64,000 bases of DNA, from NCBI GenBank assembly GCA_021018995.1, contig CM037585.1, positions 120,178,331 to 120,242,330 on the forward strand. Direction: 5' to 3'. The DNA comes from Chloranthus sessilifolius (lineage: Eukaryota; Streptophyta; Magnoliopsida; Chloranthales; Chloranthaceae). This document shows, piece by piece, positions 4,386 to 55,710 of this stretch. The notes beneath the pieces are model-generated. The model was not told the origin of the DNA. It saw nothing but the letters and a program-made list of their open reading frames with translations, and made no database searches. The translations under genes were made by a program, and so were the position numbers. How positions within the stretch are numbered: position 1 is the first letter of the stretch; the number at the start of each line of letters is the position of its first letter.

Positions 4386-5259
4386 TGACGACATCAGGCG
4401 ACGAACGTCCGTAGGCCCAGGACGGACGTCCAAAATTTGGAGTGCTCACTGTTTAGTGAGCATGGATGTCTGTGACCATCACGGACATCCGTGACCACAG
4501 GCGACGGACGTCCATGGTCACCAGGACGGACGTCCGTGGACGTCGTGCCTCGAGCGACAAAATTTTCCTATTTTTGCGAAAATTACCTTTTTTCAATCTT
4601 TTATTATTATTAGGACTCTTTAATTCGAGTTATTAAGTGGCTGCCAATATAAGGAGGCTTGTAAATACTTTTTAATTAGTTAATGAATAATTTGAATGCT
4701 TTTATGCTTGAATATTCTTCTTCCCGAGATGGGTTTGGTGTGAGGCCAAGGGAGTGATTTTCAAAGTTATCTTTTTATCTTTTCAATTATCTATCTCTGT
4801 TTTCTCTTAATCTTTCACCTTTATTGATCCCAGATTTCTAAACCCTAATCTATTAGTTTCTTGATCCCAAACCCTCAACCCTTTCTGGAACCCTAAAGTA
4901 AACAGAACCAAAACCCTTTTCTAAACTATAAACCTAAACCAAACCATAAGCCTATTACAAAACCATAAAGTTATTTCCACAGCCTAGTTCGGGCCCATGA
5001 ATCTACATAGAATCGAAGATGAACGCTCAAGCCTAAAAAAGTTAGAGTTTTATCTCTATGTCCGATCCCGCCTCAAATTTAACGGGACTTGCGCATTGGA
5101 TTGGACCCTAATTGAATCTAACGTGATTTGCCTATCAGATTTCTCAAACCCTAAGGTATCAAGTTAATTTTGAGATTAAGCTTGATTTAATTTTATTTAA
5201 TTTTGACAAAATAGCATAAAAATCATATTCACGCATTATAGGGTTACCATCCCGTGTCA
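4386..5259 (+). repeat. probable 3' LTR of the chromovirus with GGACGTCC word array
   Basis: It begins with TG after the polypurine tract and may end with GTGTCA at 5259. Its first 165 bp (4400-4548) are filled with GGACGTCC, GGACATCC and ACGTCC words, many palindromic, plus a perfect 8-bp-arm hairpin at 4443-4462 (TGCTCACT/AGTGAGCA). The rest is AT-rich with repeated CCCTAA-like runs (4800-4930). Only the start is well supported. Confidence 0.5.
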
Positions 5260-6098
5260 GGTAGCTCACATGCGTCTATAAGAGGTGGTTGTGATCATAT
5301 TTGAAATTAGCTCAGGTACCAGATGAACTTTTATGGAGAAAGCACAAGGTGTTGAGCAGCTAGTGTGCTACAGGTCATATTAAGTTACACTCTTAGGTGA
5401 AGGCACCAAAGCACTAAGCTATGAGAGCGCTACATATCAAATGTAAGCTAGACCCTTGGGTGAAGGCAAAGTGTTGAGGACTAGAGTGATGCAATGCACG
5501 ATGAGTTCCATAATATCGACCTTGATCGACGATGGGAGCATCGAAGACATGATTTGCTCATTTCAATTGAAGCAACTAACAAGAATGATGTTATGGATAG
5601 GTTTGTTTCTAATTTGTATGAGATATTGGATATTAGGGCATTCCTAGGTGAAGTGTAGACAACGCTGAGTAATGAGGACTATCACCTAGGTGAAAACACA
5701 AAATGGTTGAGGTGCTGATGCAGAGGCATGAGATGAAGATTGAAGTAGCTCGTCATGAGATCAATGGGAATGTGCCTAATAAAGAAGAATGAGAGTATAA
5801 ATGGTACTTATACAGATGCCTGAAATTGAGACTAGTGACGCTTGTCGTGGGTTAATATGAAATTGTCTAGGTGATGACGAAGTATAATAGTTGGGGGATT
5901 GAAATAGATACATGACACAAAGACAACTAACCATTCGAGATATTGACATGTGCGTAAAAAAATGAAGGATAGTAATTTCAGCTCTGATGCAGGCAATGGG
6001 GGTAAAGAATGAATTTTAGTTGAGGTAATGACATAGGGATTGTGACATGAAGACGAAGTGTTGAGAGACTTACACATTGAGTTGGGAGGATGTGAAGT
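5260..6098. other. stretch without recognisable gene
   Basis: No coherent protein is visible. Phrases such as CTTAGGTGAAGGCA and CCTAGGTGAAG recur (5393, 5454, 5645, 5688), suggesting a decayed repeat. The last five bases (GAAGT, 6094-6098) form the left target duplication of element A. Confidence 0.4.
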
Positions 6099-7145
6099 TG
6101 ATCGGGGCATCAGATTCAAGTAGCCTCCAGTGATGAATCGAAGGCGAAAGAAGAACATCAAAGTGATCAGAAAGAAAAACAAGCTCAAATTTAAAGGACT
6201 GAAGAAGCACTCAATTGATCGATTGACCCCAACCTTCGATCGATCGATGGTGGATAGTGGACACATATTCTAAGCATATTTATGTTTCTCAGTCGATCGA
6301 TCGATCCAGAATTTTCAGTCGATCAATTGTAGTCAGTGGCTTTGAGCAATTTAATTATTTCCCAGTCAATCGATCGACTCCAGAATCGATCAATCAATCG
6401 ATCGTGCGAATTTTGACGGGATTTCATTATTTTGGTCAAAAAATTTCTACTTTAGTGTTTTAGTTGTTTTAGGACTTTTCTAATTTCATATTAGGGTTTA
6501 ATTAGCCTATTTAAAGGCTTGTAAAACAACATTATGATGATGATTAATGAGTGAAAATTGAGACCTTGCTTTTGTGTAAACCCTAGAAAACTTGTGAAGA
6601 GTTTTCACCTGAAAGAGCGAATCTTTGAAAACCTGAGGAGTGAATCTTCATTTCTCGTGCGACTTGGTGCGAAGCAGATCTACAGCCTTGGTGTGTAGCC
6701 TCGAAACCCTTGGTGTGAAGCCTTAGATCTTATCCTTATATTTTATCTTTTCTGTCACTATTGTCTGGTAATATCTCACCTATTTGCTTTAATAAAATCT
6801 AAAAACCCTAAATCTTTATTAATTTAAATCTTTGATCCTACCCTTTTATTTGCCTTAATCCTTCAAGCCTTATTTATTCAAACGCTAGAGGAGTCAAGAA
6901 ACGATACCATAATTGTCGTTTAGTGCCCAAAACTAGATCGAAACTCAAGTCCTTCATCAGATCCGTTTTTCTAGATCGGGAATTAATGCATGCACACGCT
7001 AAATAGAATTAATTTAATTGTTATAATTGAATTCATTGAATTATTTTATGTGTTTGGGTGATTTCGAATATTTTCATTATTCAATTTTAATTTGGAGTTA
7101 ATCCCAAATTCGCATCATTTAGGGTTTAGCGTTTGTTCCACATCA
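6099..7145 (+). repeat. 5' LTR of element A
   Basis: It runs from TGATCGGGGCATC to CCACATCA and aligns along its length with 24933-25954. Positions 6210-6410 hold CGATCGATCG-type palindromic words. The TATTTAAAGGCTTG stretch near 6508 could be the promoter TATA region, and repeated GGTGTGAAGCC phrases lie at 6670-6725. It ends five bases before the primer-binding site. Confidence 0.85.
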
Positions 7146-7149
7146 AATT

Positions 7150-7474: not shown

Positions 7475-7640
7475 GTAGGTGTAACGACTCAGATTTTTCA
7501 TATCGTTAATACACCTAAATTATTATATGTGCTTAATAAGGTATACACCACACACCCAACTTTTCAAAACCTTGAACTAAAAGACACACATTTTGGCTCT
7601 CACAACCCCTAAATTTATTTCCCCCCACAAATTGACACAA

Positions 7641-7760
7641 GTGATGAGGTAGCCTATTGGTTAAAAGCTTGAATTATAGGCAAGATAACTAAGGATTAAA
7701 CCTTGGCATTGAATATTGAACCCTTATTTTTGGACCTTGAGGTATGGACCTATACACCCT
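7641..7760 (+). other. tRNA-like (SINE-head-like) stretch inside LTR B
   Basis: GGTAGCCTATTGGTTAA resembles an RNA polymerase III A box, and about 35 bases later GGATTAAACCTTGG resembles a B box. This spacing and wording recall tRNA-derived SINE heads. It may be a decayed SINE caught in the LTR or chance similarity. No tail or target duplication was found. Confidence 0.25.
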
Positions 7761-8249
7761 TCCTTGGTGTGTCAGACTAACACCGGATGACTTCTAATAA
7801 GTTATAAAGGGGTGTCATACGTAGAGCCTTAAATCATAATCTCTCAGAGAGTCCTTAAGAATAGACTTCTTAAGAAAACCCTAACCGCCTCTTTTTTTCT
7901 CCTTAAGAAAACCCTAGCCGTAATCACTTCTCCCTCAACCCTTCTTCAAATCACTCAAAAATCTTTTGAGTTCTCAACTACAAGTCATTGTGATCCATCA
8001 AGATCAAGGAGAGTGAAGCGAGAGACCTTGGACAACGATAGTGTGGAACGTCGGTCTCCTCAACCAGATCGTCGTAGAATTGTTGCTCATGCTTCCAAAG
8101 GTAGATATCATCATTATTGGATTGTGCATCTCTTAACCGCAGAGATTATCTTTTAATATAGATATGATTTTCGAGCCTTAAATCGCCTAATTTCATTCTT
8201 ATTTTCAGATCTAGTCTCAAACATTGATACTTCTGAAAACAGCAGTGAC

Positions 8250-8805
8250 AACTCGTTGTGGGGATACTCACAGCTCGCTGCCATTAGTGACAGCCCGATG
8301 TGATAATATCCACAGCTCACTGCCATTGAATGGAAACCAACATCGTTGACATTGCTTTTCGAACATCGTACCAAACCCTCAAAACAAACTCACTACTTGC
8401 TGTTACAAGGGGATAATGACCTGTCGTCGGGAGAATAAGAAATAGAACCCAGCCACAGCTAGCTGTTGGACATGACAACTAGTTGTGTATTCGACCAAAA
8501 TCAAGAAAAGAAATCCACAACTCGCTACCAGGAAAGACGTAACTCGATGTGGATACAAACAGAAAAGAAATGAATAACGAAAACGATGATCAATCATGTC
8601 ACCGTCACATAACAAGCAACGAGCTATGAATACTTAGAACAAAGAAATTGTCATAGCCACAGCTCGCTGTCATCTCAAACAATGAGCCGTGAATACCAAG
8701 AACTGAGAATTCTTTACAGCCACAACTCGCTGTCTTATCATAGCAGCGAGATGTGAATACTACCACAGCTCGTCGTCACCTCGCGACAGCGAGCTGTGAA
8801 TACAA
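8250..8805. repeat. ACAGCTCGCTGT / ACAGCGAGCTGT word array in LTR B
   Basis: About a dozen variants of CACAGCTCGCTG and its reverse complement GCGAGCTGTG alternate at spacings of roughly 20-60 bases, often followed by AATAC. The clearest pair is at 8761-8802. The truncated relative at 48829 keeps the last word (GAGCTGTGAATAC), so the array belongs to the LTR family. Confidence 0.8.
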
Positions 8806-9486
8806 AAAAGTAGAGGAATTTCTTCAAATAAATCTTTCCTCTTTCGATCAATCGACCATTGATGTATCACTATTGTATGCAATGTAAAAGGGAGAATCGG
8901 TTACTACTGATAGACATCATCCCACTTCCTTCCTGCAACGCCAGTACCCGAGGTAGGGGAATTTCAATGATTATTTCGTATTGTGTAGTTCTGATTCATA
9001 GTTGCTTAGTGATGTAATTACTCCAAAAATGGTCTCTTTACTGTTAGAAGTAGAGCACTGAAAAAACCATGGATTGCTATACGATTATTGATTTATTGAA
9101 ATTCATAGATTATAGTGAACACATTAAATAATGTGAAACTCATTGAATGTTGGACACTCATTGAATCATCAAAACTCATCAAATGTGGTACTCACATTAA
9201 ACATCGAAAATTCATCGAACATCGAACTTTGAACTATTTATAAAATATGAACACTATATTATGTTAAAAGATGCATGTGATTTAAAGCAATTCCATTGAA
9301 CCGGATCTTGTGCGATGACGCCTTTTGAAAATTCTGAACCGTTACGACGACCCTTTTGAAAATTCTGAACCGTGCTTCGGTACACATTGAATCATGATGA
9401 CGGCCCATTGAACCGTGCAAGTTTTCTCACAAGGCAGGGGCTTGAGCACATTGAAAATTGTTCTTAAACAACGATGACTAGGATCC

Positions 9487-11916
9487 TGTAAAGACCCGTA
9501 TTTTGAACCCGAGTTAGACTGACCCTGTGTGTGTATTCGGCTCGGCAACCGACGTCACCATTTGTTTTGGATTTTTATCTAGATGTGATTGTGCAGACAG
9601 ATTTTAATTTAGAGCCCATTTGGACCCTCGTGCGAAAGTTGTGCACCGACCTCGGTGTAGCCGCTCAACACCGGACTTGAGTTTTAAAATTAGAAGTGTA
9701 TAATACATAAGATGTGTGTGTGTGTTTTACTTTGTGAGCAATCCTATTATAAGAAGAAATTGCATTCCCGTATTATACTAGGTTTTGTTAAGAGAGGATA
9801 GTTACCCAACCATGTGAAACTCCTTCTTCTCTCTTCTTCAATCATCGTAGGAGATCGGTTTAGAAAACCTCCTTCTCTAGAACCCTCTTTGTTGAAAACA
9901 CTTAAACCTTAGAAAGAACTTGAATCAACCTTGGATTCGTAGTTGGCTATTGGGAGAGGTTGAGATCATTGGGGGCATGTTGGAGTTGTCTCTGTGAACT
10001 CGTGGGATCGATCGCGGCGCGAATCGTTGAGGAAACCCGTCGGTTTCGTTCCGAAGCTCCATTCGCGTGACTCATTTCTAATCTAGGAATCCTTAGATTA
10101 AAGGTACGTTTTAATTAAACTTTTTGATCAAATCATTAGATTAGTCATGGGTTTTGCTTTGGGATGTATGGGTTTCAATTCGGGTGAAAACCAGCGAAAT
10201 CGCGTCGCTATAGCTCGCTCGAACGAGCTATTATCATCGCTCGAGCGAGGTATCACCGAACTCCGATATTGCCTTAGTAGTTTAGTCATAACTTTTTATC
10301 CCGAACTCCTATTGAGACGATTCTTTTTGCGTTGGAAAGCTAATAGAAAAATCTACAACTTTCATATTTTGACCAACTCATGGATCAATCGTCTTGATGG
10401 TAAAAAATATATGAGAATGTTACGTCAAATCGCTCGAGCGAGCTATTATCATCGCTCGAGCGAGGTATTGCCGAACTCCGACATTACCTTAGTATTTTAG
10501 TCATAACATTTTATCCTGAACTCCGATTGAGGCGATTCTTTTTGCGTTGGAAAGCTAATAAAAACATCTACAACTTTCATGTTTTGACCAACTCATACAT
10601 CAATCGTCTTGATGGTCAAAAATATATGAGAATGTTACATCAAATTCTAGGATTGGCACAACTTGCCTGTTTTGACTTGTTTTTTAGGAAACGCTTAAAT
10701 AGGTCTATATTATTAGTAATTAGAGTTTATCTTAATGCATGAACGTATATTGTGATGTAGATTGAAGGCGAGAGGCCATCAATAGGACTTTGCTTGACTT
10801 CGCATAACTCCGAGTTTTTGGTAGGAGAATCTCATCTTTACAGTATTTTATTTTAATTCGCATGGATATTTTGAATTAAAATCTTTGAACTTGCATATGC
10901 CATTAAAATCACATCTGTAAACTGAAATTGATATGAATGACTGAAAATCTAAATCTACCTGAATCCTGAAACCTGAATCTGCTTAAGCTCTGAAAATCTG
11001 AAATCAAGAACCTGAACTATGTATAAGAAACTCGCATCTGATTTATATTAGTATCTGCATTTGTTTTATAATTGACCTGAACGACCCCTCAAAAATTCTT
11101 GAACAATTTCCTGGCACAAGTTTCCCTCATTACGTAGGGGCTTGTTGCATCCTGAAAAAGGGTTCATGAACGACGATGGTAGGTAGGGGTTCCCATCGGC
11201 TATATTCCTGCTCTCGAGATATAGTTTACTCGGGAGGTATTTTAAGTTGAGGGTTAAGTCATGAATTACTGAACTTTGCATATAGAAGTTAGAGAAACTA
11301 AGACATCAAACACCAGACCGTTTGAAACTGTTTTCACACATTTAGAAATAAATCTTACATATGATTTCCGTACCTAAATTCAGTTTATTATCTGCTTATA
11401 TGTTTGACAAGCTATATTCCGATATTTGTTTTGAAACCATGTTAGTTAAAGTAAAATGCCGTAGATGTCTTTCTTCTACTGAGCTTTGTTGGTTAGGTCA
11501 CTCCGACTATACGTCACAGGTTCAGGTATTGACATGGCTATTCAGGGCTGTGAGACTGATCCTGACTACGTTCCTAAGGAAGAGCTTGAGGTTCCTCCTG
11601 AGGAGTTTTTCCCAGTATAGAACTTACTGATTTTCTTATTTGTGGTGAGAGTTAGACTTGAATTTGTGGGCCCATTTTAGTTGGATACTATAGTTTTATA
11701 TTTGACGTTGATTTCTGTTATGAGCCATGTTTCGATGATGGTCGGCCATCATCAGTGGTTCTTTACTTTTAATTGCTTCCGCATTTATTTTAGCTATGGA
11801 TATTTATTACGCGTTACTCTGATATGTGCCCTGTTTGTCCGGCTTATCGTTTATTCGATAGGTTGGCGAACCGGCCTTTCCTATACCTGAAGGATTGGAA
11901 AAGTCGGGTCGTCACA
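9487..11916 (+). mobile_element. Element D: solo LTR inserted in B
   Basis: It runs from TGTAAAGACCCG to CGGGTCGTCACA with a perfect 5-bp target duplication GATCC (9482-9486 and 11917-11921). At 2430 bp with no internal domain it is a solo LTR of a Tekay-like family. TACTGAGCTTTGTTGG near 11478 suggests plus orientation. It contains a 215-bp tandem duplication built around a GCTCGAGC word pair. Confidence 0.9.
10214..10645 (+). repeat. two-copy 215-bp tandem repeat with GCTCGAGC words
   Basis: Each copy begins with two CTCGAGCGAG-type words around ATTATC, then carries the stretch containing GCGTTGGAAAGCTAATA and ATCTACAACTTTCAT. Copies start at about 10215 and 10430. A related version of the second part, without the words, lies inside solo LTR G at about 52290-52450. 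Confidence 0.85.
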
Positions 11917-12295
11917 GATCCCCATCAGCTACCATCGGCTTTAGCGCTATATCTACATTAGATATTTTTAAGTTATTTTATTTAAGTTGTGCATGAACAT
12001 CAGAAATGAACATGAAATGGATAAAAACGTCAATATAAAGCAACGTATTAGAATATGTGCTTGAAATTTTCAATGGACTCTCTGAATATGATATCTGAAA
12101 TCTATCGAAATTGATGTTATTAAATTTGAATTGTTACTTAGAAATAATCATCTTAGAATGTGAATTGTAATGACTCTTATTAAAATCAGTAAGAGCTTTG
12201 TGTTAGAATGACTATGATATGACTGGTTATTGGGACTGCCCTACTAGCTTGTAGATTTTTAGCTCATCTCGACACTTTAGTATCACAAGTACCGA

Positions 12296-14897
12296 TGTGA
12301 CAGCCCAAATTTCCGTGCTCAGAAATCCGTGCCATCAGGATCATACTCTGGATGATCCCCAGGACAAATCATGAAGTGTTTGCTCGTACAGCAGAAACCA
12401 AGCAGACACGGTCCAGCAGTGGTAGATCGAGTCATCACACAAGACATTTAAAATAAATGAATGCAATAAATAAAACATGTATCTCTATATATACCAAAAG
12501 AATACACATTCTCAAAAAGGAACCAAGAAGAACCATTGGTGATGGACATCCATCACCCAAACAATGGTTCCTGATAGTGGTTCCGAGTAGAATGTATAAA
12601 TAATACAATAAGTAAAGTCTACTGAAAATATATACAAAAAGTGGCCACCAAGCACACAATAGTCCAGATATCAAACATGCAAAAACATCAAACTCAAATA
12701 CCCAGGCTACGGGTAGAACTCATCTGCCTGGATGTCCGTTTCCTCGTCCTCACTCCTGGTCCTGGTAATCAAGGTCGCCTTGCTCGGAGCTACAAATTTC
12801 TCGTAACCTATAAATGATTAGAAACAGGGTGAGCTACATCATAGCTCAGTAGAAGAATATAAATTAAAGTTGCATATTAATTGTAAAACATGGTTGCTGA
12901 AGATATGAACAGAACTGAACAAATGCAAACAGATGTGTCAATATGGGGAAATTATCAAAGCAGGCAGAATTTATCGGAATTGACCAAAATGTGATGCATA
13001 CAGTGTATAATGACTTAGAATAATAAACTTAAGTAACTCCCGTGAGTATAGCACGTGGTAGCCAGATTTGGTCCGATGGGTAATCCCGACCATCGTCATT
13101 CACATGAACAATTTTAGGAAATGCAGTAATGTCTCAACTATGGAGTGCCATTGTGCCGAGGATTTTTAAGCAGATGCACGAGTGTACTAGAAATGGATAT
13201 ACCGCCGAGTCGGTGGGATTCGTCAGAGTATTAAACCATAAATCACATGCAGATAAATCTTATTGAACGGGAATCAGATGACAGATATCAGAGTTATCAG
13301 AGTTAGCACACATATGCTAGACATGACTGGACTGTAAAATCGGACTATGCAGTCAAATACAAAAGCTTGATAAAAAATAAATGCAATTTCGAATGGATTC
13401 CCCTACCTTAGGTCAGACCTCTTCTAAGCAAATCCAAAGCCTTTCAGAAAGTCATGGTCTGATCCTTGACCCTATACATAGTATTCTAAGTGTCAGGGAT
13501 GTCAGAACATAAATTGGCACAATGTCCAGTTAAGTTTTATTCACAAAACTAATACATGCAGAAAACAGGGGTGATTGATCGATCACCACTCTTATTGATC
13601 GATCAATCCCTCTTGTTGATCGATCAATGACCTCATTGATCGATCAACACTCTCTTCTCTTTAACAAGCAACAGAGTAAATTGATCGATCAATAGCCTCT
13701 ATTGATCAATCACTACTCCTCATTGATCGATCAACACCTCTATTGATCGATCAATAATCCTTTTTCTTCACACTTTGGCACAACCAAAATTGATCGATCA
13801 CCAACTTGGTTGATCGATCAATGCCCTCATTGATCGATCAATAGCCTAAAATCTCAATTTTCTTACCTTCTGTTCACATTTAAAATTTATACAGATTGAT
13901 CGATCAATACACACTAGTGATCGATCAATGCCTTCATTAATCGATCACCACCAGTCATTGATCGATCACGCTCTTGTTGATCGATCAATACCCAGGATTG
14001 ATCGATCAATGCCCTTCGAGCATTGAACTTCCAGAATCTTCAAGGTTCCTGTTCCCTTATTTGTCCTATACAGATTGATCGATCAATGCCTTTATTGATC
14101 GATCACCACCAGTCATTGATCGATCAATACCTTCATTGATCGATCAATAATGACAAAACTCTTGTCATTAATGGAGGTCATCTACTTCCCTATTTTCAAC
14201 CCATTTTCATTAATGGCTTCTTGCAACCATTAATACACACACAAATACGTATATATGGCTCTCCGTAGCCCAACTCAAACATACAAATTCACCTTTTGTT
14301 GGGCCCTTTTTGGGGTTTCGGTAGATCTATCCGAAAGAGGGTTTCGAATCCGAAACTTGAGTTGTATCGCCGGTGCGACTCCGATATGTAAGTATCAACT
14401 TCCGATTCAGCACGCAAGGGCTTCACACGCACCTAGACCGTACTTGAGTTCACCCCTTTGAACTACACATACCCTTTCTAAGATTTACGCACGATCTCGG
14501 CACCTCTAACCCTATTTCCTCACAAATCACTTTCAATCTTACTTAGCCACAGATCTCTTTGCTCAAGAACTAGAGGAAGAAGAAGAGAAAACACCTCTCC
14601 AGGTCTCTCCCTTCCCTTATAAGCCACCCAAACTGAAATATCTTTGATATTTTAGTTTAGGCCCTCATTTGCACTCCGATGTTAAGCGCGCACACAGTCG
14701 CTACGGCGCAACATGCTACGTTGCCACCTTACACAACTCAGACTTAAGTGAAAATACACGTGTGAACTCATCTAACCATGGTGCTACTTTACGTCAACTA
14801 ATATTAATTATCAATTTTCAAATCAGTCTCATTTTCTGTGTCGGGCACGCATACCGAAACAGTCTGGTTTCTTGTTCGAATTTTTCAGGTTGTTACA
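12296..14897 (-). mobile_element. Element E: solo LTR inserted in B
   Basis: It runs from TGTGACAGCCC to AGGTTGTTACA with a perfect 5-bp target duplication ACCGA (12291-12295 and 14898-14902), 2602 bp. GGGTGAGCTACATCATAGC near 12828 is the antisense of a motif common in Tekay-like LTRs, so the element is in minus orientation. Its relative at 45.19-47.73 kb has LTR, PPT and pol end in the same orientation. Short unrelated ORFs inside are not considered genes. Confidence 0.9.
13566..14155. repeat. ATTGATCGATCAAT word array in LTR E
   Basis: Roughly twenty TTGATCGATCAA or one-base variants are separated by 6-20 bases of changing filler, with two interruptions without words. The 14-base core is a perfect palindrome. 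The same word fills 46500-47050 in the related LTR F, though the fillers differ. Confidence 0.9.
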
Positions 14898-15272
14898 ACC
14901 GAAGTTAATGAGAATCCTGATTTTGTATCGAAAGACGAGGCAGATCTTCCACCCGAGGAGTTTTACCCTTAGAATTCTTCTGGTGATTTGAATGTGGTAC
15001 AATTTTTAAATGATTTTTCTTTGAAACAATTATGACTTATCTCGTGGATATTGATGTAAGTACTATTGTTTGTGTGACGTACGGCCCACCGGTGGTACTC
15101 TTGGGTTTTGTATTTATTTTATTTTATTTTGGACATTGAAGCATTTAATTCGTTATGATGGCTTGATCTCTATTGATACCAAAGAAATTTTGTATTTAAA
15201 TTGTGAATTATGATCTAGCGGCCTGATATTTCTATATTTTCTGATTTAGAAATATCGAGTCGTTACAGTAAG

Positions 15273-15519
15273 AGAGAAGGTCCTCACCGATGTGAAGTCC
15301 AAACCAATCAGGACGACAAAGTAATGAAATCTATTGAAATTGATGCCCCTACTTTTGATAGAAAAAGATAACCTAAAGTCTATCTCGAATGGGTCGCCGA
15401 CATGGAAAACTACTTCGAGTGGTATGCCATATTCGAGGAGCGTAAAGTCTGATTTGCGAAGGTCAACCGTTTGGGTCAAGCTAGAATTTATTGGTTGGGA
15501 TGTGAACGTCGTAGGCAGT
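15273..15519 (+). pseudogene. element A gag, middle piece (left copy of duplication)
   Basis: This continues the gag after the B insertion. The frame reads VMKSIEIDAPTFD, then YLEWVADMENYFEWYAIFEE, then AKVNRLGQARIYW, the usual start of a Ty3/gypsy retrotransposon gag domain. In-frame stops occur near 15369 and 15450. From 15321 to 15519 the sequence is repeated with one mismatch at 23479-23677, on the other side of element C. Confidence 0.75.
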
Positions 15520-17403: not shown

Positions 17404-17404
17404 A

Positions 17405-17424
17405 GTTTTTGGCGCTGTCGGGAA
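17405..17424 (+). other. primer-binding site, Athila/Tat type
   Basis: GTTTTTGGCGCTGTCGGGAA is a worn form of the GGCGCCGTTGCCGGGG site used by plant Athila/Tat elements (tRNA-Asp-like). It sits where the 5' LTR should end. Confidence 0.65.
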
Positions 17425-25954: not shown

Positions 25955-25959
25955 GAGGT

Positions 25960-32070: not shown

Positions 32071-32075
32071 AGGAT

Positions 32076-41421: not shown

Positions 41422-41430
41422 AAAATTATA

Positions 41431-41904: not shown

Positions 41905-41906
<2 letters not shown>

Positions 41907-43320: not shown

Positions 43321-43342
43321 TCCTTTTTTTGTTTCATATATT

Positions 43343-45040: not shown

Positions 45041-45187
45041 TATATGAATACTATTTGGGAAAAGCCTAACAGAGAGAATGAGTAAGTAAATTCCCTCCAT
45101 AAAACTTTTAACATGCCGTTTGAAGCGTCAACGCGTCGTTGTCGAAGTGTCGTCGCCTTTAGGTTAGAACGTCAGTGCTATGACTAC

Positions 45188-47729
45188 TGTGGCAGCCCGA
45201 ATTTTCGCACCCGAAAACTCGTGCCAGCAGGATCATACTCTGAATGATCCCCGGGATAAACCAAAGAGTGTTTGATTATCTAGCGGAAATCAGAGCAGAC
45301 ACTGTCAAACGTGGCAGATCGAGTCGTCATATAAGGCTCTAAAAAGAAAGAAAATAAAATAATGTATATATATATCCAAAAGAACATACATCCTCAAAAA
45401 GGAATCAAGGAGAACCACTGGTGATGGACATCCATCACTCAAAACAATGGTTTCCAATAGTGATTCCTATAGAATGTATAGAGCTACATCTAAAAAAAAT
45501 CTATAGTATATAATACAGAAAAGCGGCCACCAGTCGCACAGATAATCTAAAATATATATATCCAGACCCTAAAACAAAACTAATACCCAAGCTGCTAGTA
45601 GAACTTGTCAGCAGGGGTGTCAGTATCCTCCTCCTCAGCCTCAGCCTCCGACTCGGGCTGATAGTCAGGATCGCTCTCCGTGCCAGGTGCTCTAGCCTCA
45701 GAACCTATTATATAGAAACAGGGTGAGCTACCATCTAAGTTCAATAGAAGAAACTCAAATAATTTGCATCTAAAAATGTAAAGCATGGCTGACAGAATAT
45801 AACTCAGACAGATAATTAAGACAGACTGCAGACAGATGATCAGATATATAAAAAAATCAGAGTATAGAACTTTTAGAGAACAGAGCAGATGCAAGGTATA
45901 GGGACAAACTTTAATCTCAGAGTGATCAAATGCATGCATATAGTAGTTATTTATTTAAATTCTATATACTTAAGTAACTCCCGTGAGTATAACATGTGTT
46001 AGCGAGATGTGTGCCGATGGGTAACCCCGACCATCGTCGTTCAATGAATAATTTAGGATATTTGTATCAAGCATCTTCAAAGGAGAGCAACTTGTGCTAA
46101 GGGTTTACAAATCAGATATATGAATATTTCGCTGTGCCGGTCATGGGTATCCTGCCATGTCAAGGGGATTTGTCAGATGAAACTTAAAATCAATACCCAT
46201 AAGACCTCAGAATTACATAGTAGAAACAGATGGTAGAGACAGATAACAATGCTTTTCAAACTAAAGAAAACAGATATAGATGCTTAGAATAACCGTGCAG
46301 TCAAAATCAAATACAAGTTAAGTTGAATTTCTCCTACCTCAAATCAGACCTTTTTAAGCAAATCCAAAGCTCTTTAAAGCATCACGGTCTCTTCCTAGAC
46401 CACAACAATAGTATAATAAGTATCAGAGATGTCAAGATATCAACTGGTACAACGTCTAGTAGTATTTTCCCCATAAAACCCAAAACAACATAAATAGGGC
46501 ATTTGATCGATCAATCTCATATTGATTGATCAAACCATTACATTGATTGATCAATCCTTCATATTGATCGATCAATCTCATATTGATTGATCAAACCATT
46601 ACATTGATTGATCAATCCTTCATATTGATCGATCAATCTCATATTGATTAATCAATTTCCTTATTGATTGATCAAACCATTACATTGATTGATCAATCTC
46701 ATATTGATCGATCAATTTCCTCATTGATCGATCAAACTATTACATTGATTGATCAATCTTTCATATTGATTGATCAATCTCATATTGATTGATCAATTTC
46801 CTTATTGATTGATCAATCTCATATTGATTGATCAATTTTCTTATTGATCAATCAAACCATCACATTGATCAATCAATCCTATCGGGCATGAACTTCCAGA
46901 AAATATACTTGTTGTCTCTATAATAGCATATATAATTTGATCGATCAATCCTGTCTCTATAATAGCATATATAATTTGATCGATCAATCTCCTAGATTGA
47001 TCGATCAATTCCAAATTTGATCGATCAAATACCTAATTTGATCAATCAAATATGGCAATTTCTGTCATCAATGCCGATCATTAATCTTGACCTATTTTCA
47101 TCCAAATCATCGTTGATCTTCGATCGATTTCGTGACTTTAAGGATCGTTGTCGAAGAGAGTTTTGGAACGAAACTTCCAGATTTCCATGGCGAATCCACA
47201 AAGATAGATCACAATATGTTCAAGATGAAGTCGTCAATGATCCATGCATACATTTCAACCTTCTCAATGCTCGATTAATGATCGAGAGGTGGAACGTTTC
47301 TTGAAAGCCGGGTTTTTAAAGAAAAGGGGTTTGAATGGCTTGAAGTTCCTGGATCTCTAACGATTGAAATTCACAAAAGGCAGACACTCAAGCGATGCCG
47401 GCGTCATGTGCTTTGCAAAGGTTGTGGAGATTGCGGTGCAGTTGCGATCGAAATCTCACGGTTTCTCATGAGGGTTCCATGGGGAAGAATCTCTCTCTCT
47501 CTCTAGAACTCCCAAGCATTACAACGGTGTTGAGCGGCATACGATGCGTTGGTGCATGGCTTTCACACTAAAGGCCCAAACACATTTAAACCTTAATCCG
47601 TTTCACACAAAGTTATCATAATATTATTTAATGATTTATTATTATATAAAAATCCATGGTGACATTGGTCACCGTGCCGGACCCACACAAGGGTTCAATC
47701 TAGTTCGGATTTGAATTTTTCGAGTTACA
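45188..47729 (-). repeat. LTR F (Tekay/Del-like), same family as E
   Basis: It runs from TGTGGCAGCCC to TTCGAGTTACA. The first 400 bp match LTR E block by block (CCAGCAGGATCATACTCTGA..., the AACCACTGGTGATGGACATC block), and 46500-47050 carries the same TTGATCGATCAA word. On its right is AAGAATTTTTATCCTCGAAAA, the antisense of the pol end that precedes a Tekay 3' LTR, so the element is in minus orientation. Only this 3' LTR and scraps of interior remain. Confidence 0.75.
46500..47050. repeat. TTGATCGATCAA / TTGATTGATCAA word array in LTR F
   Basis: More than twenty-five words are spaced by about 8-12 bases. A higher-order unit (ATTGATCGATCAATCTCAT then ATTGATTGATCAAACC) is itself repeated with a period of about 65 bases between 46510 and 46700. 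Confidence 0.9.
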
Positions 47730-48828
47730 TTCTTCCTACCTTAAAGAATTTTTATCCTCGAAAATCGACGTGCTATGTTCAATAATGTACAAGTACGATT
47801 CAACATTAATGAAAATAATCAAAGTTATTACATGCACCCCTCCTCAAAGAAATTTTTGCCCTCGAAAACGCAAAACATACCTAAACAGGTTTACGGTAAT
47901 CCCTCATCCTAACAAACGTTCATAATAAGGCATAATCAAAACAGTCATAGGTCCATAGAGAATGGATCACAATGAGGTAGGTTTTACCAACCATGTTTTT
48001 CAAGGGACGGGGTCCCGTAGTAATCTGGATGTACTTCATGTGGCATCCCATAACACCATAGAGGGGTTGCATCCGTACATGGACACCTACATTTCAAGTT
48101 TTACTTGCTTGGGAAGAGAAACCCCATCATGACTCAAACTTATCACACATATCTCTTACATTTTCTTATTAGATAGTCACGTACATTCTAACAGAATTTA
48201 ATCTGAGTTTGGAAATAATTTACCTGCCTGATAACTCATAGAATCACAACCAACCACAAAGTCTACAAAAATCGAAGTTCACATACGCATGCCAATTGAT
48301 AACTCTCATTGAAAATGAATAATAGGTACACATACACGGAACCTCACACAGGTTTAAACAAAGCAGTGATAATTATGTTACAAAATTTTATTGTATAATA
48401 GTAATAGATAAAGATAGAACAGCTAAGTTATAAATTATTATTGCCAATAATATTATTATAAAATTTTAATTTATCTCGATTTTCGTATCAAGCACGCATA
48501 TCAAAACAGTCGAATTCTATTCAGAATTTTAGGGTCATTACAATATCCCCCCCATAGAAATTTTCGTCCTCGAAAATGTCTAACAGACATTAACAGTTCT
48601 AACCCTAGCAAATGTCCACAGAACATTATAATGAATATTTGGTTAAAGGGACATCAAATGCATCCCCTTCTGGTGCAACATCAGGCTGTGCCCCCCCATC
48701 ATCTGGTGCTTGCCCGTGTCAGGCACCTCCTCAACTGGAGTTGGTGGTAAAACCCCCTCCTCAGGTAACCTCTTGACCAATAGATTATAGATCTTGGTCC
48801 AGTCCTTGAGCTTGAAAACTTTAGAGCT
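47730..48828 (-). other. scrambled interior and LTR-end pieces of Tekay-like elements
   Basis: Three times (47730, about 47832, 48543) a TTACA end is followed by the antisense of the pol end, with ATCCTCGAAAA, GCCCTCGAAAA and GTCCTCGAAAA. The piece 48480-48542 matches the last part of LTR E (AGCACGCATATCAAAACAGT). From 48543 to 48828 a degraded pol fragment is likely. It looks like stacked truncated copies or recombination products, all in minus orientation. Confidence 0.5.
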
Positions 48829-50383
48829 GTGAATACCAAAAACGGAGAATTTTCCTTAATTAGATTTTCCTTATTCGATCGGTCGATTTTGGGCAGAATC
48901 AATTGGCCCAGTTACATTTACTTTAAATTCTGATCAATCAACCATTGATATGTCACTTGTTTAATGAAATATAGAACAGGGAAGCGGGTGGAATTAACAA
49001 GGATCGTCCCGCCTTTCAATACGACATTAAGAAACGAGTTAGGAAAATTTCAATGCACATTTGTATGTTATACTTTGATTCATAGACAATTAATTAGCTA
49101 ATGAATTAGCAAATCATCTTCTGATGACTAGAGTTAGAGCATTGAAATCCATTAAATATTACACTATCATTGAATAACGGAAATTCATTGGATATTTGAA
49201 CTCATTGAGCATCATACCCCCGTTGAGCAATTGAAACCCATTGAACAATATCATACACATTGAATTGAAACTCATTGAGCATTGTACTCTCATTGAACAT
49301 TTGAAACTCATTGAATATTGTACTCTCATTGAACATCTGAAATTCATTTAACATTGAACTCTCATTGAACATTGAAATCTGAAATTGAATTATGAATTAC
49401 CTATGAAGTATGAACACAATATTATGTTTTAGAATATGCATGTGATTTGAAGAGTTGATCTGAACGAATCCTGTGCGACAATACCTACTGAACCGTGCTT
49501 CAGAACCTACTGAACTGTGCTTCGACACCTACTGAACCATGCTTCAACACACTCTGAACCATGATAACGACCTTTGAACCGCACAAGTATTCCTCACAAT
49601 GCCGGAGCTTGGGCACTTTGAAAAATTATTCTTGAACGACGATGGTTAGGATTTCCATCGGCTGCCATTGGTTCTAGCACTATATTTGCGTTAGAGATTA
49701 CTTAAGTTATGATTTAAGTCATGCATGAACATAAAAATCTGCATTTAAAATGTAACGAGGAATATGATAAATAGGCATTCATATGAAAATAGAAAATATT
49801 ACATTGGAACATTATATTGGACTTTATCCCTTGGACTTTCTGAATATGAACTTAAGACTTTTCCTACTATTGCCTTTAATCAGAAAAATTGAAATGATCT
49901 TTGAAACTATGTGTTGAATGTATAAGATACGATTGGAATTGAGATTTTCCTACTGAGCAAGTGGATTTTTAGCTCACCCCGACACTATGTGTCACAGGTA
50001 CCGACATTGGCAAGGATCCTGAATTTGAAGAAAATCCTGATTTTGTGTCGGAAGACGAGGAAGATCTTCCACCAGAAGATTACTAACCTTAGGAAAATTT
50101 TCAAGATTTGGACTTGGTATAGTTTAAAAGATATTCCTTAAATAATTGTCTATTTGTCTCCCCGTACTTTGATATAGGTACCACTATTTGTGTGACGTAC
50201 TGTCGTCATCGGTGGTATTATTAGATTTGTATTCTTCATTTTAGACGTTGAAGCATTTATTTCAGTTTCTTTTATAATTTGATTTCCATTAATACCAAAG
50301 AGATTATGTACATAGATTATGAACTATGATCTAACGACCCGGTATTTCTATATCTTTCGACTTGGAAATTTCATATCATTACA
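48829..50383 (+). repeat. truncated LTR of the B family
   Basis: From GAGCTGTGAATAC to CATATCATTACA it follows LTR B (8793-9486, 11922-12295, 14903-15267) in order, including CGACACTATGTGTCACAGGTACCGA and the final GATCTAACGACCCGG. The 5' portion is missing. Its left neighbour belongs to another LTR family, so the junction near 48828 is a deletion fusion, and no common target duplication is present. Confidence 0.75.
49150..49380 (+). repeat. CATTGAACATTGAAACT short repeat
   Basis: About twelve copies of a 17-22-base unit ACTCATTGAACATTGAA lie inside the B-family LTR. A shorter version is at 9110-9230 in LTR B. Confidence 0.8.
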
Positions 50384-51049
50384 AAACTTGATAGAAAGAA
50401 AAAGAATGAATAAATATTTTAACACACAAAAACGTTTTCTATCAACTCGCTTTCATAAAATTAAATAAGTGTGACTCTGTGAAACCACACTTTCCATAGT
50501 CAATCCAGAGGAATGCAAATACACCTGTGATCTAATAGGCGCACAAGATTCTTTAAAGAAGCGCCCACACTTCAAAAATTGAGCGACGTTGCTTCTGCAA
50601 GAAGCGCCGTCGCTTCTTCCCGAAACGTCGTCACTGCTCAAATGAGGCGTCGTCGCTTCAAAATGATGGTCACGAAACGTTAAAATCAATCCTTAAATCG
50701 AGAATAAACACATAAAAAAAAAAAAATTCAACACATGAAAATATTACCATAGGCAATCCACATGATTCAAAATACAACTCTGGTTAGATAGTCGCAGAGG
50801 CTACGTAAAGAAGCATCAACACATCGACAAAGAAGCATCAACGCGTAAATGATATTGCGACGTGCCCACACTTCCGAAACGAAGCGACCACGCTTCGAAT
50901 GTAAAGCGCATGCGTTTCCTACGCGAAGCGATTGGGCTTTTCATAAAATTGAATCAGTGTGACTCTATGATACCGCACTTTTCATCGCCCCCTGTTCTAT
51001 TTGGCTCTGTCCAGTACTAGCAGTCATCATCCTGACCCTCTTTAGCAGG
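50384..51049. other. middle of MULE-2, GAAGCG words and a 44-bp direct repeat
   Basis: CATAAAATTxAATxAGTGTGA occurs at 50454-50497 and again at 50941-50984, bracketing GAAGCG/CGCTTC word clusters. No gene can be read. The second copy adjoins the 3' end of the transposase. Confidence 0.5.
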
Positions 51050-51219
51050 CAAGTTGTGATTTTATGACCCAACCCAACTCACTACAATCCTTATAATGAC
51101 ATCTCTTCTTTTTTATTGTTCAAAACCAACCTCCATTCTACACTTCATTCTATCATTGTTGCTTGACTTATCTTTAGTGACACATCGTATTAGATCTCAC
51201 ATTGTAATGTTGGCATGCT

Positions 51220-52660
51220 TGATCGATTTTAAATGTAACCCTTGCAAGTGCACAAGATCTATTGCAGTATGGCAAGAACAAAGGTGTCGAACCCACAGGG
51301 AAATCTTGAATTTTAATTAATTCTTTCAGAGATTTAAAAACGTCCCCAAGGAAGTACCAAAGGGCAGATTCAATTTAACCAAAAATTTATCACTTTTTCT
51401 AAATGCAAGAAAATAAATTAATCTAAACAACTAATTACTGATGAATCTAAGAATAATATTTAAATAAGATCAAGAAATATGCTACCTCAGATTTGTACCC
51501 CCCTTTCATTAAAGAATCATTCACACCATCACCATCATTCATTCATAAAAATGATTTGAAATAAAGTATGATCATCAATCCGGCATACCCTATCTAAAAA
51601 CAATGACTCAGCCTATCATTGCGGTATGAGTCATGTAAGAAGCATAGCGTATCTCGTGATATGTAGATCAAAACAATAAAAACATTAGACTATGGTATTA
51701 ATCATAAATATGGGTACTTATCTGGGGATCGCATCTTTCCCGATCTACTGATTTAGCCGCTCATCTTTGGTGTATGATCTCCTTGTTCATTCAAAGTCAT
51801 TCCTCTTTTTATTTCTTCCAAAAATCTTTGGTTACAATGCCTTTTCCTAAATACAATCTATGCTTTTATGAACGTAAAGGAAAAACAATGCAAATCCTAG
51901 GTACAATCTACCCAGATCAATCCCTAGAAGAAGGAGAAAAGAAGAACTTTTAAAAAGATGCTCAGAGGAGTCTAAAATCAAAAATAATAATGAATAATAA
52001 TCTTCTAAAAAATTCTCTCCAAAAACTCTAAAAAAAAAAAAGCTAAAACTAACTCTCTAATTATCTATCTCTAATTCCTCCCTCTAATTCCTATCTCTAA
52101 TTCTTGCTCCAATTCTTCCCTAATTTTTGCTCTAATTTTTGCTCCAATTTTTGCTCCCCTTTTTTCGAAGTGTTTGATCCGCTTTAAATAGAGCCGAAGT
52201 TTCCCAGCCGCAGAGGTGTTCCAACTCGAAAATTTAGAGTCAATTAATTGACCCAATAGGGTCGATGCATCGACCTCCCAGATTTTCGTGAATTCCCGCC
52301 GAACTTTACATCAGACACTGCTTCAGTATTTTGGCCATAACTTTCTGTCCCGAACTCAGATTGAGGCGATTCTTACTCCGTTGGAAAGCTGACAGAAAGA
52401 TCTACAACTTTTGTGTTTTAACAATTTCATAATTCGGCCGTCTTGAATATCCAAATTGAGCTACAAGTCACACCAAGTTCTCGATGACCCAAAGTTGCAG
52501 TGTTTTGACATTATTTTCAGAATTCTTGGGCTGTTTTCTGCACTTGGCTTGTATTTACCTGAAACACTTTAAATCTAATAATTCTTATCAGATAGCCTTC
52601 ATCGGATAGCTAAATATAGGTATCTAGGGGTGAAATATCATCATATTTCACTACTCATCA
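51220..52660 (-). mobile_element. Element G: solo LTR (Athila/Tat-like) in the transposase
   Basis: In plus-strand text it runs from TGATCGATTTT to CTACTCATCA, with a perfect 5-bp target duplication ATGCT (51215-51219 and 52661-52665), 1441 bp. Read on the minus strand it starts TGATGAGTAGTGAAATA, resembling the start of the element C LTR, and ends with the GGTTCGACACCTTTG ... GCACTTGCAAGGG text usual for Athila/Tat LTR ends. A hairpin GTGAAATAT/ATATTTCAC (52630-52651) sits near its start. Confidence 0.88.
52239..52274. repeat. two perfect 14-bp palindromes in LTR G
   Basis: GTCAATTAATTGAC (52239-52252) and GTCGATGCATCGAC (52261-52274) lie eight bases apart. They are followed at about 52290 by the GTTGGAAAGCT/CTACAACTTT module also found in LTR D. 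Confidence 0.9.
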
Positions 52661-54965
52661 ATGCTCTTGTAATAAAATTCTTTAACTAGTTCCATTCTAA
52701 TGGCCTCTACGCCTTCTAATAGTTTCATTATCACTTCCAATATGTAATTCACCAAGCGATTTAATTCTATCCCCAACTGAATTAACTTCAGTCCGACTTC
52801 TCTCACCTTCTATATTTTCATCGTAGATATATAATTGAAATCCTCTTTCTCACTAACCCCCAAATATATAGTACTGGATCTAGAATCTTTCGTCCATCGA
52901 GGTAGAATGTACTTAGAAGAAATTTAGTCTACCTCTTCCTTGAAGTAAACATGAAAGATGTGAGAACACAACAAACACTCTGTTTGGAAGTGCTTGCAAT
53001 CACAAGTGGCAGTGACATCTCCACATTCTAAATGAACTTTGAATGTTTGACTACTATCCTCTATGCCATCCCCAACACTTCTACACATTTACAATAATCG
53101 CCCCAACTTCCTCTTCGACAACCTTTTGAGACTTAAAAGAGGTAAACTTTTGAAACTTAAAGTGAAATCTATCGAACATGGTTCTCGTATACACAGTAGC
53201 GGCATGCCTCTCGAATGAATTTTTGAACAAAAGCTCCGGGGTCATGGACATTGAAACGAGAACCTTCCTATTTTTTTTATCATGACGAGACTGGATGACA
53301 AGATCGTGTTGCTTGATAAATTTCGTCAAACTTGTGTGGGCATTGATATAGGTATCAAAGAAAGAATTTATACTTTCTCTGTATTGCATAGTGGTCATGC
53401 CGACCCAAAAGATATCTCTCTAGTAGCATGGAATCTATTCCCTTCTAAGAGCATGCATTTATTTGAACCAATCATTGTTTGCAATTGAAACTCCTTGGCA
53501 AGTTTTGCCCATCTCCTTTCGAAATCATCAACCGTTTGACTTAACTTACATTGATTATACTTTCTCTCAAAATTCTTAAACTTTACCCTCAGCTGACAGA
53601 GATGGTTCAATTCATTCCTCCCTATGTGCCATATGCAGAGACGATGCGTGGTCTCCGAAAGAACTTCAAAGATGACCTTGCTCATCTCATTGCATTAATC
53701 GGTGATGATTATATTAGGTTTCTTATCACCCATACACTTCAGCCACATGTTAAAAAACCAAATGAATGTCTCCTCTGTCTCATCTGTGAGTAACGCATAT
53801 CCAAAAATCATCGTCTGCCAATGATGGTTGACCCCTATGAATGAGGTGAAAGGTAACAATAATTTATTTGTTTTGTAAGTGGTGTCGAATACGATCACAT
53901 CACCGAAATGCTGATACGCCATCCGTGACCTGTGATCAACCCAAAATATGCTACGCATACAATATTCTTTGTCTAATTCGACTTCAAAGAAGAAACCATG
54001 TTCTTTATGCTACCTATCAATGAAGGTCTTGATCACGGTCATACACATTGGATGGATGCTACTCTCATTTCTTATCTTCTTTAAGTAATCCTGAGTTTGT
54101 TGAGGGCCTACCGTCATGCCAGCCTCGCAATCAAAACTCAATAAAATAGTAGAAATCTTCAAAAGAGGAATTATGTCATCAAATGTTCCTATCAATGATT
54201 TACTTACCCCGCTCATCTTATTATGTGATCGCAGTTCCTTCACCTTCGTAGGTGTATATAATTGATGATTATGCGTCTCTCTAAATTTCATTACCTCTCA
54301 CAACTTATGGCTGTCGATCCTAATCTTTAACCTTGCCTCATAGCCATATCTGTTTTCTCTTGAGCACATTATATCAGCGTGTATTTTGCGCTCGTCAGGT
54401 TGCTTGAACCCTTCGAATGGGCATACATATTCTCTTTATAATCTTTCCCTTTACAGATTTGTAGGTGTTACTTTTCCTAGCGCTGAAACTAACTTTCTTC
54501 GCTTATAAATTATATGCGAAACTAACTTTCTTCGCATATAAATTATATGCTTCGTCTTTAGATTAAAATTTCAAGCCGATATGTGGCCTCCATTCTTCGC
54601 TGGTATTCTCGGCGCCTCCGCAAGAATCTAGCATTTTGATATCCCAATCACCACCAAGTAAAACTCCTTCTAAAGAAACCGTCTTAGGGGTGAGATTTAA
54701 ATCAATACCACCTACATTGAATCCTCCAATCGAGTCCATTGCTGCCCCTGCATTAGACGAAAAAATTAATTAATAATGGGCTAATAAAAAAACCGATTCA
54801 TAGAGAAGTGATGACGCGACCATAAAGAGCGTCATCGCTTCAAGTTAGAAGTGATGACGCCTTTAACTCATCGCGCCGTTGTTTCGTATCGCTTCAAGTC
54901 TGAAGCGATGGCGCTTCTAACTCGTCGCGCAGTCCCTTCGTATTGTTTCACATATGAAGCGTTAG

Positions 54966-55320
54966 CTTCTACGTCGAGTATAATTTATATATTTTCGAAT
55001 ACTTATAATTTTATGATCACCATATAATGAGATCCATCAACTAAGAACAGATGACGATACCGCTTCACATACGAAGCGACGACACAAATCATACGAAGCA
55101 CCATCCCCCCGGTGCAGAAGCAGCGACGCATCTATGACCGACATTAACTCTTCGCAGAAAAAGTGTTTGCCTCGATTATAACATATATATTTGAATGCCT
55201 ATAATTTTTGGCATGTAACCAGTAAATAATACATAGAAAGGAGCTGCAAAGCGCCAAACTTACCTCAAATGCCACTCTTTTGCCCTTTTATCCAGTTAGA
55301 ATACCATGGAGAAAGAGAAA
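54966..55320. other. upstream region of the FAR1-type transposase, GAAGCG words
   Basis: AT-rich sequence with clusters such as CGCTTCACATACGAAGCGAC. It is the expected promoter side of the minus-strand transposase. Confidence 0.4.
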
Positions 55321-55707
55321 GTTGTCTCAGCGCTTATGCTTTTCCACAGAGAGCGCTTCTATCTAGTCAGAGCTCCAGAGAGAGGCACTAAGTGTACAGA
55401 GCGCCCAACTTTTTCACAGAAAGCCTCACAGATAAGCGCAAGCGAGAGAGAGGAAATAAAACGAGAGAGAGAAAGAATCTGAAGAGTGTGAGAGACAGAA
55501 AAGGAACCCGTAGCAAGATTTTGAATTATTTTACCGCCATCTTCATGACGAGACATTCCCCTTGGAGTCTGTGCTACCTACATTACCTACCATTGTCAGA
55601 AGGAAGCCCCGCTGTGGCTAACCCGGGTTAGTGCAAAATCACTTTCCATGTGTCCGTTCCCCATTGGGGGGGACGTAGAGAAGTCCTTGGGCGCATTTTC
55701 CCCTTTG

Positions 55708-55710
<3 letters not shown>

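Follow-up and report, generated by a model that had tools for sequence, protein, structure and literature searches.

The window is a 64,000-bp stretch of plant DNA (Chloranthus sessilifolius, contig CM037585.1). It is dense with nested transposable elements, which were framed by self-comparison and by inspection of element ends. Most of its element families, both long terminal repeat (LTR) elements and Mutator-like elements (MULEs), carry an array of a short word. We observed the arrays, their near privacy, noncoding location, symmetry, and spacing, pieces of genes with DUF1985 and C48 domains, and related proteins with different words. The arrays are real. Our preferred reading, held with moderate confidence, is that each family has its own array of sites at which a dimeric DNA-binding protein would dock. 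Such proteins would be element encoded and anti-silencing in the MULEs, and the arrays would be cis-regulatory in the LTRs. All within-family comparisons are between copies inside the window.

The arrays were as follows. None is assigned to a strand.

4404 to 4545: array in the 3' LTR of a chromovirus-like element; word GGACGTCC, 6 sites about 21 bp apart.
6214 to 6408: array in the 5' LTR of element A; word TCGATCGA.
8246 to 8798: array in element B; word ACAGCTCGCTGT in both orientations, 17 sites, neighbor gaps of 20 to 22 bp or longer.
10214 to 10462: solo LTR of element D; word TCGCTCGAGCGA, 4 sites, two pairs 22 bp apart.
13574 to 14149: array in the solo LTR of element E; word ATTGATCGATCAAT, 21 sites.
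15772 to 16080: array in the 5' LTR of element C; word CTTTGCGAA, three inverted copies first, spacing of 19 to 22 and 29 to 32 bp.
21937 to 22220: array in the 3' LTR of element C; word CTTTGCGAA.
25048 to 25204: array in the 3' LTR of element A; word TCGATCGA.
33572 to 33850: MULE-1 array a, upstream of the transposase; TATCG-NN-CGATA.
37180 to 37438: MULE-1 array b, between convergent genes; 13 sites, spaced at exactly 20 bp.
39292 to 39450: MULE-1 array c, between two open reading frames (ORFs) of the VANC-like gene (likely an intron).
40936 to 41036: MULE-1 array d, upstream of the VANC-like gene.
41974 to 43275: MULE-2 words upstream of the DUF1985 gene; AAGCG-N4-CGCT and GAAGCG.
44390 to 45188: MULE-2 words inside and beyond the DUF1985 gene; the block test described below gives a weak result (3/200 and 15/200).
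46503 to 47049: array in the LTR of element F; word ATTGATCGATCAAT as in E, 24 sites, CpG partly decayed.
50550 to 50960: MULE-2 words in an internal noncoding block.
52239 to 52276: element G; two palindromes, GTCAATTAATTGAC and GGTCGATGCATCGACC, with centers 22 bp apart; no array.
54800 to 55360: MULE-2 words upstream of the transposase; block test 3/200, not palindromic in motif discovery.

The word arrays that a preliminary description of this DNA had proposed exceed chance. After (AT)n runs were masked, CpG palindromes of at least 12 bp were counted, with 30 dinucleotide shuffles as the control. An unmasked count was dropped because it was inflated by the (AT)n runs. The masked window contained 46 such palindromes versus 3.5 ± 1.8 expected (shuffle maximum, 8). 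All but one (45/46) lay inside array blocks, which cover 8,279 of the 64,000 bp. Element E contained 14, MULE-1 11, F 9, A 6, D 3, and the chromovirus and G 1 each. There were none in B, C, and MULE-2, whose words have an unpaired center.

The block test took the best of all palindromic words (center gap, 0 to 4), maximized alike in the real block and in 200 shuffles. The result was 0/200 in 15 of 20 blocks: the chromovirus, both LTRs of A and of C, B, D, E, F, MULE-1 a to d, and MULE-2 a and d. Shuffled controls that matched the real counts had been named as grounds for giving up the claim; in these 15 blocks they did not match. The other five gave 3/200 (MULE-2 b), 3/200 (MULE-2 e), 15/200 (MULE-2 c), 101/200 (B2), and 142/200 (G). 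Motif discovery that did not require symmetry was also applied to 14 blocks, and for 11 of them the resulting matrix was palindromic (P < 0.05). The exceptions were the chromovirus (0.33), MULE-2 a (0.26), and MULE-2 e (0.99).

In all nine blocks compared (B was left out), the array had a higher CpG observed/expected ratio than the remainder of the LTR. The values were 1.26 versus 0.66 (chromovirus), 1.60 versus 0.78 (A 5'), 1.72 versus 0.69 (A 3'), 1.10 versus 0.71 (E), 0.92 versus 0.78 (F), 1.27 versus 0.76 (C 5'), 1.12 versus 0.60 (C 3'), 1.94 versus 0.92 (D), and 1.35 versus 0.62 (G).

At least nine families with arrays had been proposed. Most of those named do have them. Element G has only its two palindromes and cannot be counted as an array, and E and F, which had been listed separately, are one family with homologous LTRs (66% identity).

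The words are nearly family private, though each was picked from its own element. The exceptions are ATCGNNCGAT, with four copies in A and one in B2; CTTTGCGAA, with one copy in MULE-1; and GAAGCG, with 12 copies in other segments (6 of them in 1 to 4385). A GATCGATC-type core had been said to cross element classes. It is common to A, E, and F, but these are all LTR elements, and MULE-1 carries only the related ATCGATCGAT. The placement of the words in noncoding parts was borne out in both MULEs. MULE-1 contains 18 copies of ATCGNNCGAT in 2,526 bp of noncoding DNA (7, 7, 3, and 1 exact copies in blocks a to d) and 0 in its 5,641-bp coding span. MULE-2 contains 28 copies of GAAGCG in 3,464 bp of noncoding DNA versus 3 in 3,022 bp of coding DNA. 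The other 57,514 bp of the window contain 13.

The claim that the word is kept while the filler changes held for the E and F LTRs. Their cross identity was 0.91 over the 12-bp word and 0.35 outside it, where 8 of the 12 word positions are biased because sites were picked by a core with at most two mismatches. The four unbiased positions gave 0.95, 0.71, 0.50, and 0.80 (mean, 0.74), and CpG decay or variants within E itself affect the two lower ones. E and F have the same consensus letter at 14/14 positions of ATTGATCGATCAAT and at 5/10 positions of the filler. CG is intact in all 14 E words with exact arms; in F there are 9 with CG, 11 with TG, 3 with CA, and 1 with TA.

Paired LTRs gave a mixed result. 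Outside CpG, words and filler decayed alike in A (4/46 versus 10/122; P = 1.0), and words decayed less than filler in C (0/82 versus 12/207; P = 0.022), the words of both having been picked by likeness. The C words did not decay less than the rest of the LTR outside CpG (P = 0.11). These pairs cannot settle word conservation because the two LTRs of each diverged only after insertion. CpG decay was lower in the arrays than in the rest of the LTR (7/38 versus 19/48 in A and 2/34 versus 16/92 in C; Cochran-Mantel-Haenszel P = 0.013). This would fit, weakly, local protection from methylation.

Spacing between neighbor sites is often fixed. Gaps outside 13 to 32 bp were left out (41 of 153). Among the 112 retained, 93 were 19 to 22.5 bp. 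By family, the counts were 3/4 (chromovirus), 10/10 (B), 2/2 (D), 16/16 (E), 21/21 (F), 9/19 (C, the others being 28 to 32 bp), 3/5 (A), 28/30 (MULE-1), and 1/5 (MULE-2). Periodicity was significant (P < 0.05) in 9 of 16 arrays, namely, those of the chromovirus, B, D, E, F, and MULE-1 a to d. The E, F, and MULE-1 gaps are not independent, since these arrays are tandem repeats, and B and the chromovirus weigh most. The pitch would correspond to two helix turns. The filler had been described as variable; its letters do differ between E and F, but its length often does not vary.

MULE-1 contains a transposase gene and a second gene. Its main features are as follows.

33255 to 41421, no strand: MULE-1, both ends present, with terminal inverted repeats (TIRs) of about 100 bp and a 9-bp target-site duplication (TSD) AAAATTATA (33246 to 33254 and 41422 to 41430).
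33967 to 36660, plus strand: transposase region with PB1-like (below cut-off), MULE, and SWIM domains; split into several ORFs.
37699 to 40868, minus strand: VANC/KIU-like gene with DUF1985/PMD (39801 to 40562), a proline-rich tandem peptide (38807 to 39256), and the end of a Peptidase_C48 domain (37699 to 37845).

The inverted terminal match is 111 bp at 87%. The MULE transposase domain (PF10551) had an E value of 5.9e-18. The second gene matched PMD above its cut-off (E = 1.7e-9) and C48 (Ulp1) with 35.7 bits (E = 1e-8; cut-off, 20.7). A protein search with its DUF1985 piece scored 0 of 226 candidates. Array b centers a 466-bp imperfect inverted repeat (37050 to 37515; fold z = -27.9 for 37040 to 37520). 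This repeat is a possible source of small RNA.

MULE-2 contains the following.

41905 to 55709, no strand: proposed extent of MULE-2; both ends abut (AT)n, and it is interrupted by F, a B-like LTR, and G.
43726 to 44043, plus strand: DUF1985 piece, 42% identical to the MULE-1 piece.
52654 to 54435, minus strand: transposase region, MULE domain PF10551 (E = 4.7e-19); broken.

Its degenerate TIR matches at 17/24 terminal bases (P = 0.0004) in a comparison that starts from the (AT)n borders and was chosen after the ends had been read. An unanchored local alignment of the ends found nothing (score, 22; shuffled maximum, 27). C48 was not seen in the two pieces of the second gene that were scanned. 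The fuller MULE-2 word is AAGCG-N4-CGCT, which goes beyond the GAAGCG/CGCTTC first reported, and words also surround the second gene (41.9 to 45.2 kb), a stretch absent from that account. A small inverted-repeat element resembling a miniature inverted-repeat transposable element, starting CACTACAAAAAATAAGAC, lies at 44236 to 44397 in the second-gene region. The DUF1985 pieces of the two MULEs share 42% identity over 90 amino acids, yet their words differ. Their transposase pieces align weakly (29% over 58 amino acids; E = 3e-4) and partly cover different stretches.

Among the LTR elements, the chromovirus and A are Ty3/gypsy by their coding domains: RNase H precedes integrase in the chromovirus, and A encodes Retrotrans_gag (PF03732). 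Element type was judged for these two only; B to G are without a diagnosed coding domain. A TATA-like box lies beyond the block in the chromovirus (TATAAG, about 90 bp downstream), the 5' LTR of A (TATTTAA, about 90 bp), and the 5' LTR of C (TATAAA, about 340 bp). For B it appears only at 409 bp, and none was found for D, E, and F in the stretches scanned. The C word is oriented, with three inverted copies. At the site threshold used, the four sites of D all fall within a tandem duplication of 215 bp. Both D and G contain a noncoding block of 136 bp, at 76 to 78% identity (10262 to 10397, 10477 to 10612, and 52311 to 52446), which we take to resemble a block common in plant LTRs. In each element it adjoins a site pair with centers 22 bp apart, and the words differ. 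A pattern scan of viral contigs with this block found nothing.

These observations suggest a mechanism. In each array, a DNA-binding protein would dock along a row of sites, as a dimer on each palindromic word. In most families neighbor sites lie about two helix turns apart, so bound dimers would sit on one face of the DNA. The MULE reader would most likely be the element's own VANC/KIU-type protein (DUF1985, plus Ulp1 in MULE-1). It may recognize the word private to its family, whether in promoters, introns, or intergenic DNA, and clear silencing marks from members of that family alone. The LTR arrays would serve as cis-regulatory boxes of U3, as in Sireviruses, and a dimeric factor of host or element origin would read them. 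Words may spread inside an element by tandem duplication and be replaced between families. The dimer sites are suggested by symmetry without covariation, by the spacing, and by the E/F contrast of word and filler. Word replacement is suggested by the shared architecture of D and G with different words. We infer binding, dimerization, anti-silencing, and a methylation effect and, in the LTR elements, every step beyond position.

Of the four roles first offered for the words, binding sites for a dimeric protein fit best. We examined arm covariation by permuting right arms among sites and comparing complementary positions with those observed. Covariation was absent in 13 of 14 tests: E (P = 0.985), F (0.78), B (0.999), chromovirus (0.72), A 5' (0.85), A 3' (0.98), D (0.17), MULE-1 b (0.94), c (0.40), and d (0.71), C 5' (1.0), C 3' (0.74), and MULE-2 pooled (0.95). 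It was seen only in MULE-1 a (P = 0.03). The test has little power where an array is nearly invariant. Matched arm changes are expected under hairpin selection and under palindrome copying, so these results speak against both. It is decidedly unlikely that the arrays were selected as RNA or single-strand hairpins, for example, as small-RNA templates such as those proposed for Sirevirus palindromes. Folding favors hairpins at first sight: z was ≤ -3.1 in 16 of 17 array blocks, with 30 shuffles as the reference (E, -13.3 and -11.2; F, -9.8; MULE-1 b with its arms, -27.9), and four control stretches lay between -1.8 and 1.2. These scores do not discriminate because any palindrome array folds well, and the B block at 8240 to 8540 folded at only -0.6. 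Sirevirus palindrome clusters are reported to have excess small RNAs (PMC10760457). Many of the MULE blocks here, however, lie upstream of genes or between ORFs.

Functionless minisatellites made by replication slippage, with palindromes as by-products, are an unlikely source of the arrays. The E, F, C, and MULE-1 arrays are tandem repeats, F holds a mutated word amplified mostly one way (11 TG versus 3 CA), and periods of 19 to 22 bp also occur in unrelated repeat loci of the window (6/23). Slippage fits poorly with one word in four noncoding places of one MULE, with palindromic words in unrelated families, and with the spacing kept in B and the chromovirus, which are not simple tandem arrays. 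The word consensus shared by E and F across diverged fillers also counts against it. For the MULEs alone, we think it quite unlikely that the words are the transposase's own binding sites, analogous to the subterminal repeats that TNPA recognizes in CACTA elements. Arrays of equal strength are found in mid-element and between accessory-gene ORFs, at 37.2 and 39.3 kb, with a weaker one at 44.4 kb, and the transposase has no need of a site there. What this explanation does account for is arrays in both orientations near both ends of MULE-1 and MULE-2, and CACTA subterminal motifs are also family variable (PMC2613891).

We give little credence to a broader proposal, in which PMD/DUF1985 proteins (including host MAIN/MAIL1) would form one cross-class family of dimeric word readers. 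The MULEs would use the VANC branch and Ty3/gypsy elements their own or borrowed PMD proteins, the gypsy LTR arrays would be anti-silencing targets, and all would share a two-turn spacing rule. 

Several results weigh against sites for dimeric proteins with VANC/KIU-type readers. Both DUF1985 matches fall below the Pfam gathering score of 35.1 (MULE-1, 32.2 bits, E = 1.3e-7; MULE-2, 31.1 bits, E = 2.6e-7). DUF287 was not found in the MULE ORF pieces scanned, which are pieces of broken genes, and the few LTR-element pieces scanned contained no accessory gene. Symmetry fails in two of the three MULE-2 blocks tested, and their spacing is irregular. Periodicity was not significant in 7 of 16 arrays (A 5', A 3', C 5', C 3', and MULE-2 a, d, and e). 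A 19- to 22-bp period was found by scripted count in 6 of the 23 unrelated tandem-repeat loci, and 5 of 8 independent families at this pitch gave only P = 0.03 against that control rate. Taken singly, the CpG decay tests were not significant (P = 0.057 for A and 0.15 for C). The MULE words also differ from the published VANC21 sites, which have a single orientation (YAGTATTAY; "palindrom" occurs 0 times in PMC5735166). The MULE-1 word is palindromic and the MULE-2 word occurs in both orientations, with a CpG per half in each (TATCG-NN-CGATA and AAGCG-N4-CGCT). For this reason we say that the arrays work like those of VANC and call the protein genes VANC/KIU-like. MULE-1 has TIRs of about 100 bp, unlike classic VANDALs, and nearly all its gaps keep a pitch of 20 bp. 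TIRs are present in some of the elements that have been grouped with VANDAL.

The elements that hold the LTR arrays are nested as follows.

From 4386: LTR of the chromovirus-like 3' end; this 3' end also holds RNase H (2452 to 2787), integrase (3072 to 3542), and SH3_Tf2-1 (3827 to 4015).
6096 to 7145 and 24930 to 25954: LTRs of element A, 87.4% identity; Retrotrans_gag PF03732 at 23611 to 23913.
7482 to 15267: element B, a probable solo LTR, interrupted by D and E.
9488 to 11916: solo LTR of element D inside B, TSD GATCC.
12296 to 14896: solo LTR of element E inside B, TSD ACCGA.
15520 to 17306 and 21684 to 23489: LTRs of element C, 93.4% identity.

Element A is interrupted by B and by C. Element C is probably nonautonomous because no Pfam domain was found in its interior (17307 to 21683; 4 ORFs scanned of 17 listed). 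A direct repeat of 203 bp (99% identity) lies on either side of C (15317 to 15519 and 23475 to 23677) and much exceeds the normal length of a TSD. A long ORF at 58062 to 59591 on the minus strand resembles a pentatricopeptide repeat protein by eye. Rfam gave 0 matches at the gathering threshold. A PDB sequence search gave nothing meaningful (best E = 0.017, to an acidic stretch). A viral-contig search with one integrase-end piece returned three stretches, none of them a relative, and one with a MULE-1 transposase piece returned nothing.

The arrays had been thought to belong to no standard feature class, but two published precedents exist: VANC target arrays (PMC5735166; KIU, PMC13317346) and Sirevirus RM boxes (PMC2829016). 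The match of the MULE layout to the published VANC/KIU anti-silencing system is close. VANC target arrays of VANDAL MULEs are reportedly also the subject of Sasaki 2022 in EMBO J. Both MULEs here encode a MULE domain and, in a second gene, DUF1985; MULE-1 also encodes Ulp1. Their private motif arrays lie in introns, intergenic DNA, and upstream DNA, as for VANC21 targets. The arrays are tandem, related DUF1985 proteins go with different words, and the MULE-1 gene has a tandem peptide. Hosaka et al. (PMC5735166) describe DUF1985-bearing VANC proteins, tandem repeats, and short private motifs that lie in introns and in intergenic and terminal noncoding parts; they add that variable parts of VANC often hold tandem peptides. 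The KIU form with its Ulp1 domain is covered, alongside VANC target arrays of VANDAL MULEs, in PMC5735166, PMC10398659, and PMC13317346. A 2026 review (PMC13317346) states that Ulp1-bearing KIU VANCs act on their own kind only. The window holds two DUF1985 proteins that are related although their well-defined words are not, and these would be material for testing how specificity changes.

The LTR arrays resemble Sirevirus RM boxes, which are palindromic, in the LTR, family specific, and in high copy number (PMC2829016). The arrays here are likewise family specific, palindromic, many copied, and CpG rich, and they lie upstream of a TATA-like box in the chromovirus, A, and C. The chromovirus and A, however, are Ty3/gypsy by their domains, not Ty1/copia. 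According to Bousios et al. (PMC2829016), RM is Sirevirus specific among the Ty1/copia elements compared, and PMC10760457 reports no obvious peak of such structure in maize Ty3 elements. Judged by titles and the starts of abstracts, none of the papers listed in the searches dealt with palindromic word arrays in gypsy LTRs. The CGG-CCG core occurs in two places in the chromovirus block, in none of the A to G blocks, and in eight places in MULE-1 a and b. The published RM of Tnd-1 is also without it (PMC2829016). The chromovirus block contains CGGACGTCCG and CGGACATCCG, at 4482 to 4491 and 4527 to 4536 (CGGACGTCCG at 4527). CGGACGTCCG is close to the RM of the copia Sirevirus Usier, GTCGGACGTCCGAC, given in PMC2829016. 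The presence of one word in both a copia and a gypsy element would favor a host reader common to the two. Some gypsy elements carry PMD proteins, the only hint of an element-encoded reader, and no ORF for a PMD-type reader was found in the LTR-element pieces scanned, four C-internal ORFs among them.

CACTA elements offer a further parallel: their subterminal repeats, to which TNPA binds, are likewise a family-specific repeated motif recognized by an element protein (PMC2613891). Those motifs are subterminal only, whereas the arrays here are also mid-element and occur in both MULEs and LTR elements. The families' words differ, but their form is common: a palindrome, usually with CpG, often at a pitch of about 20 to 22 bp. 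If anti-silencing proteins did read the LTR arrays, plant transposons in general, and not MULEs alone, would escape silencing in a sequence-specific way. The window would place VANC anti-silencing, of DNA transposons, and palindromic Sirevirus LTR boxes side by side in one genome. For the most part, these two known feature types account for the arrays, which extend them to the LTRs of Ty3/gypsy elements and to VANC-type words that are palindromic.

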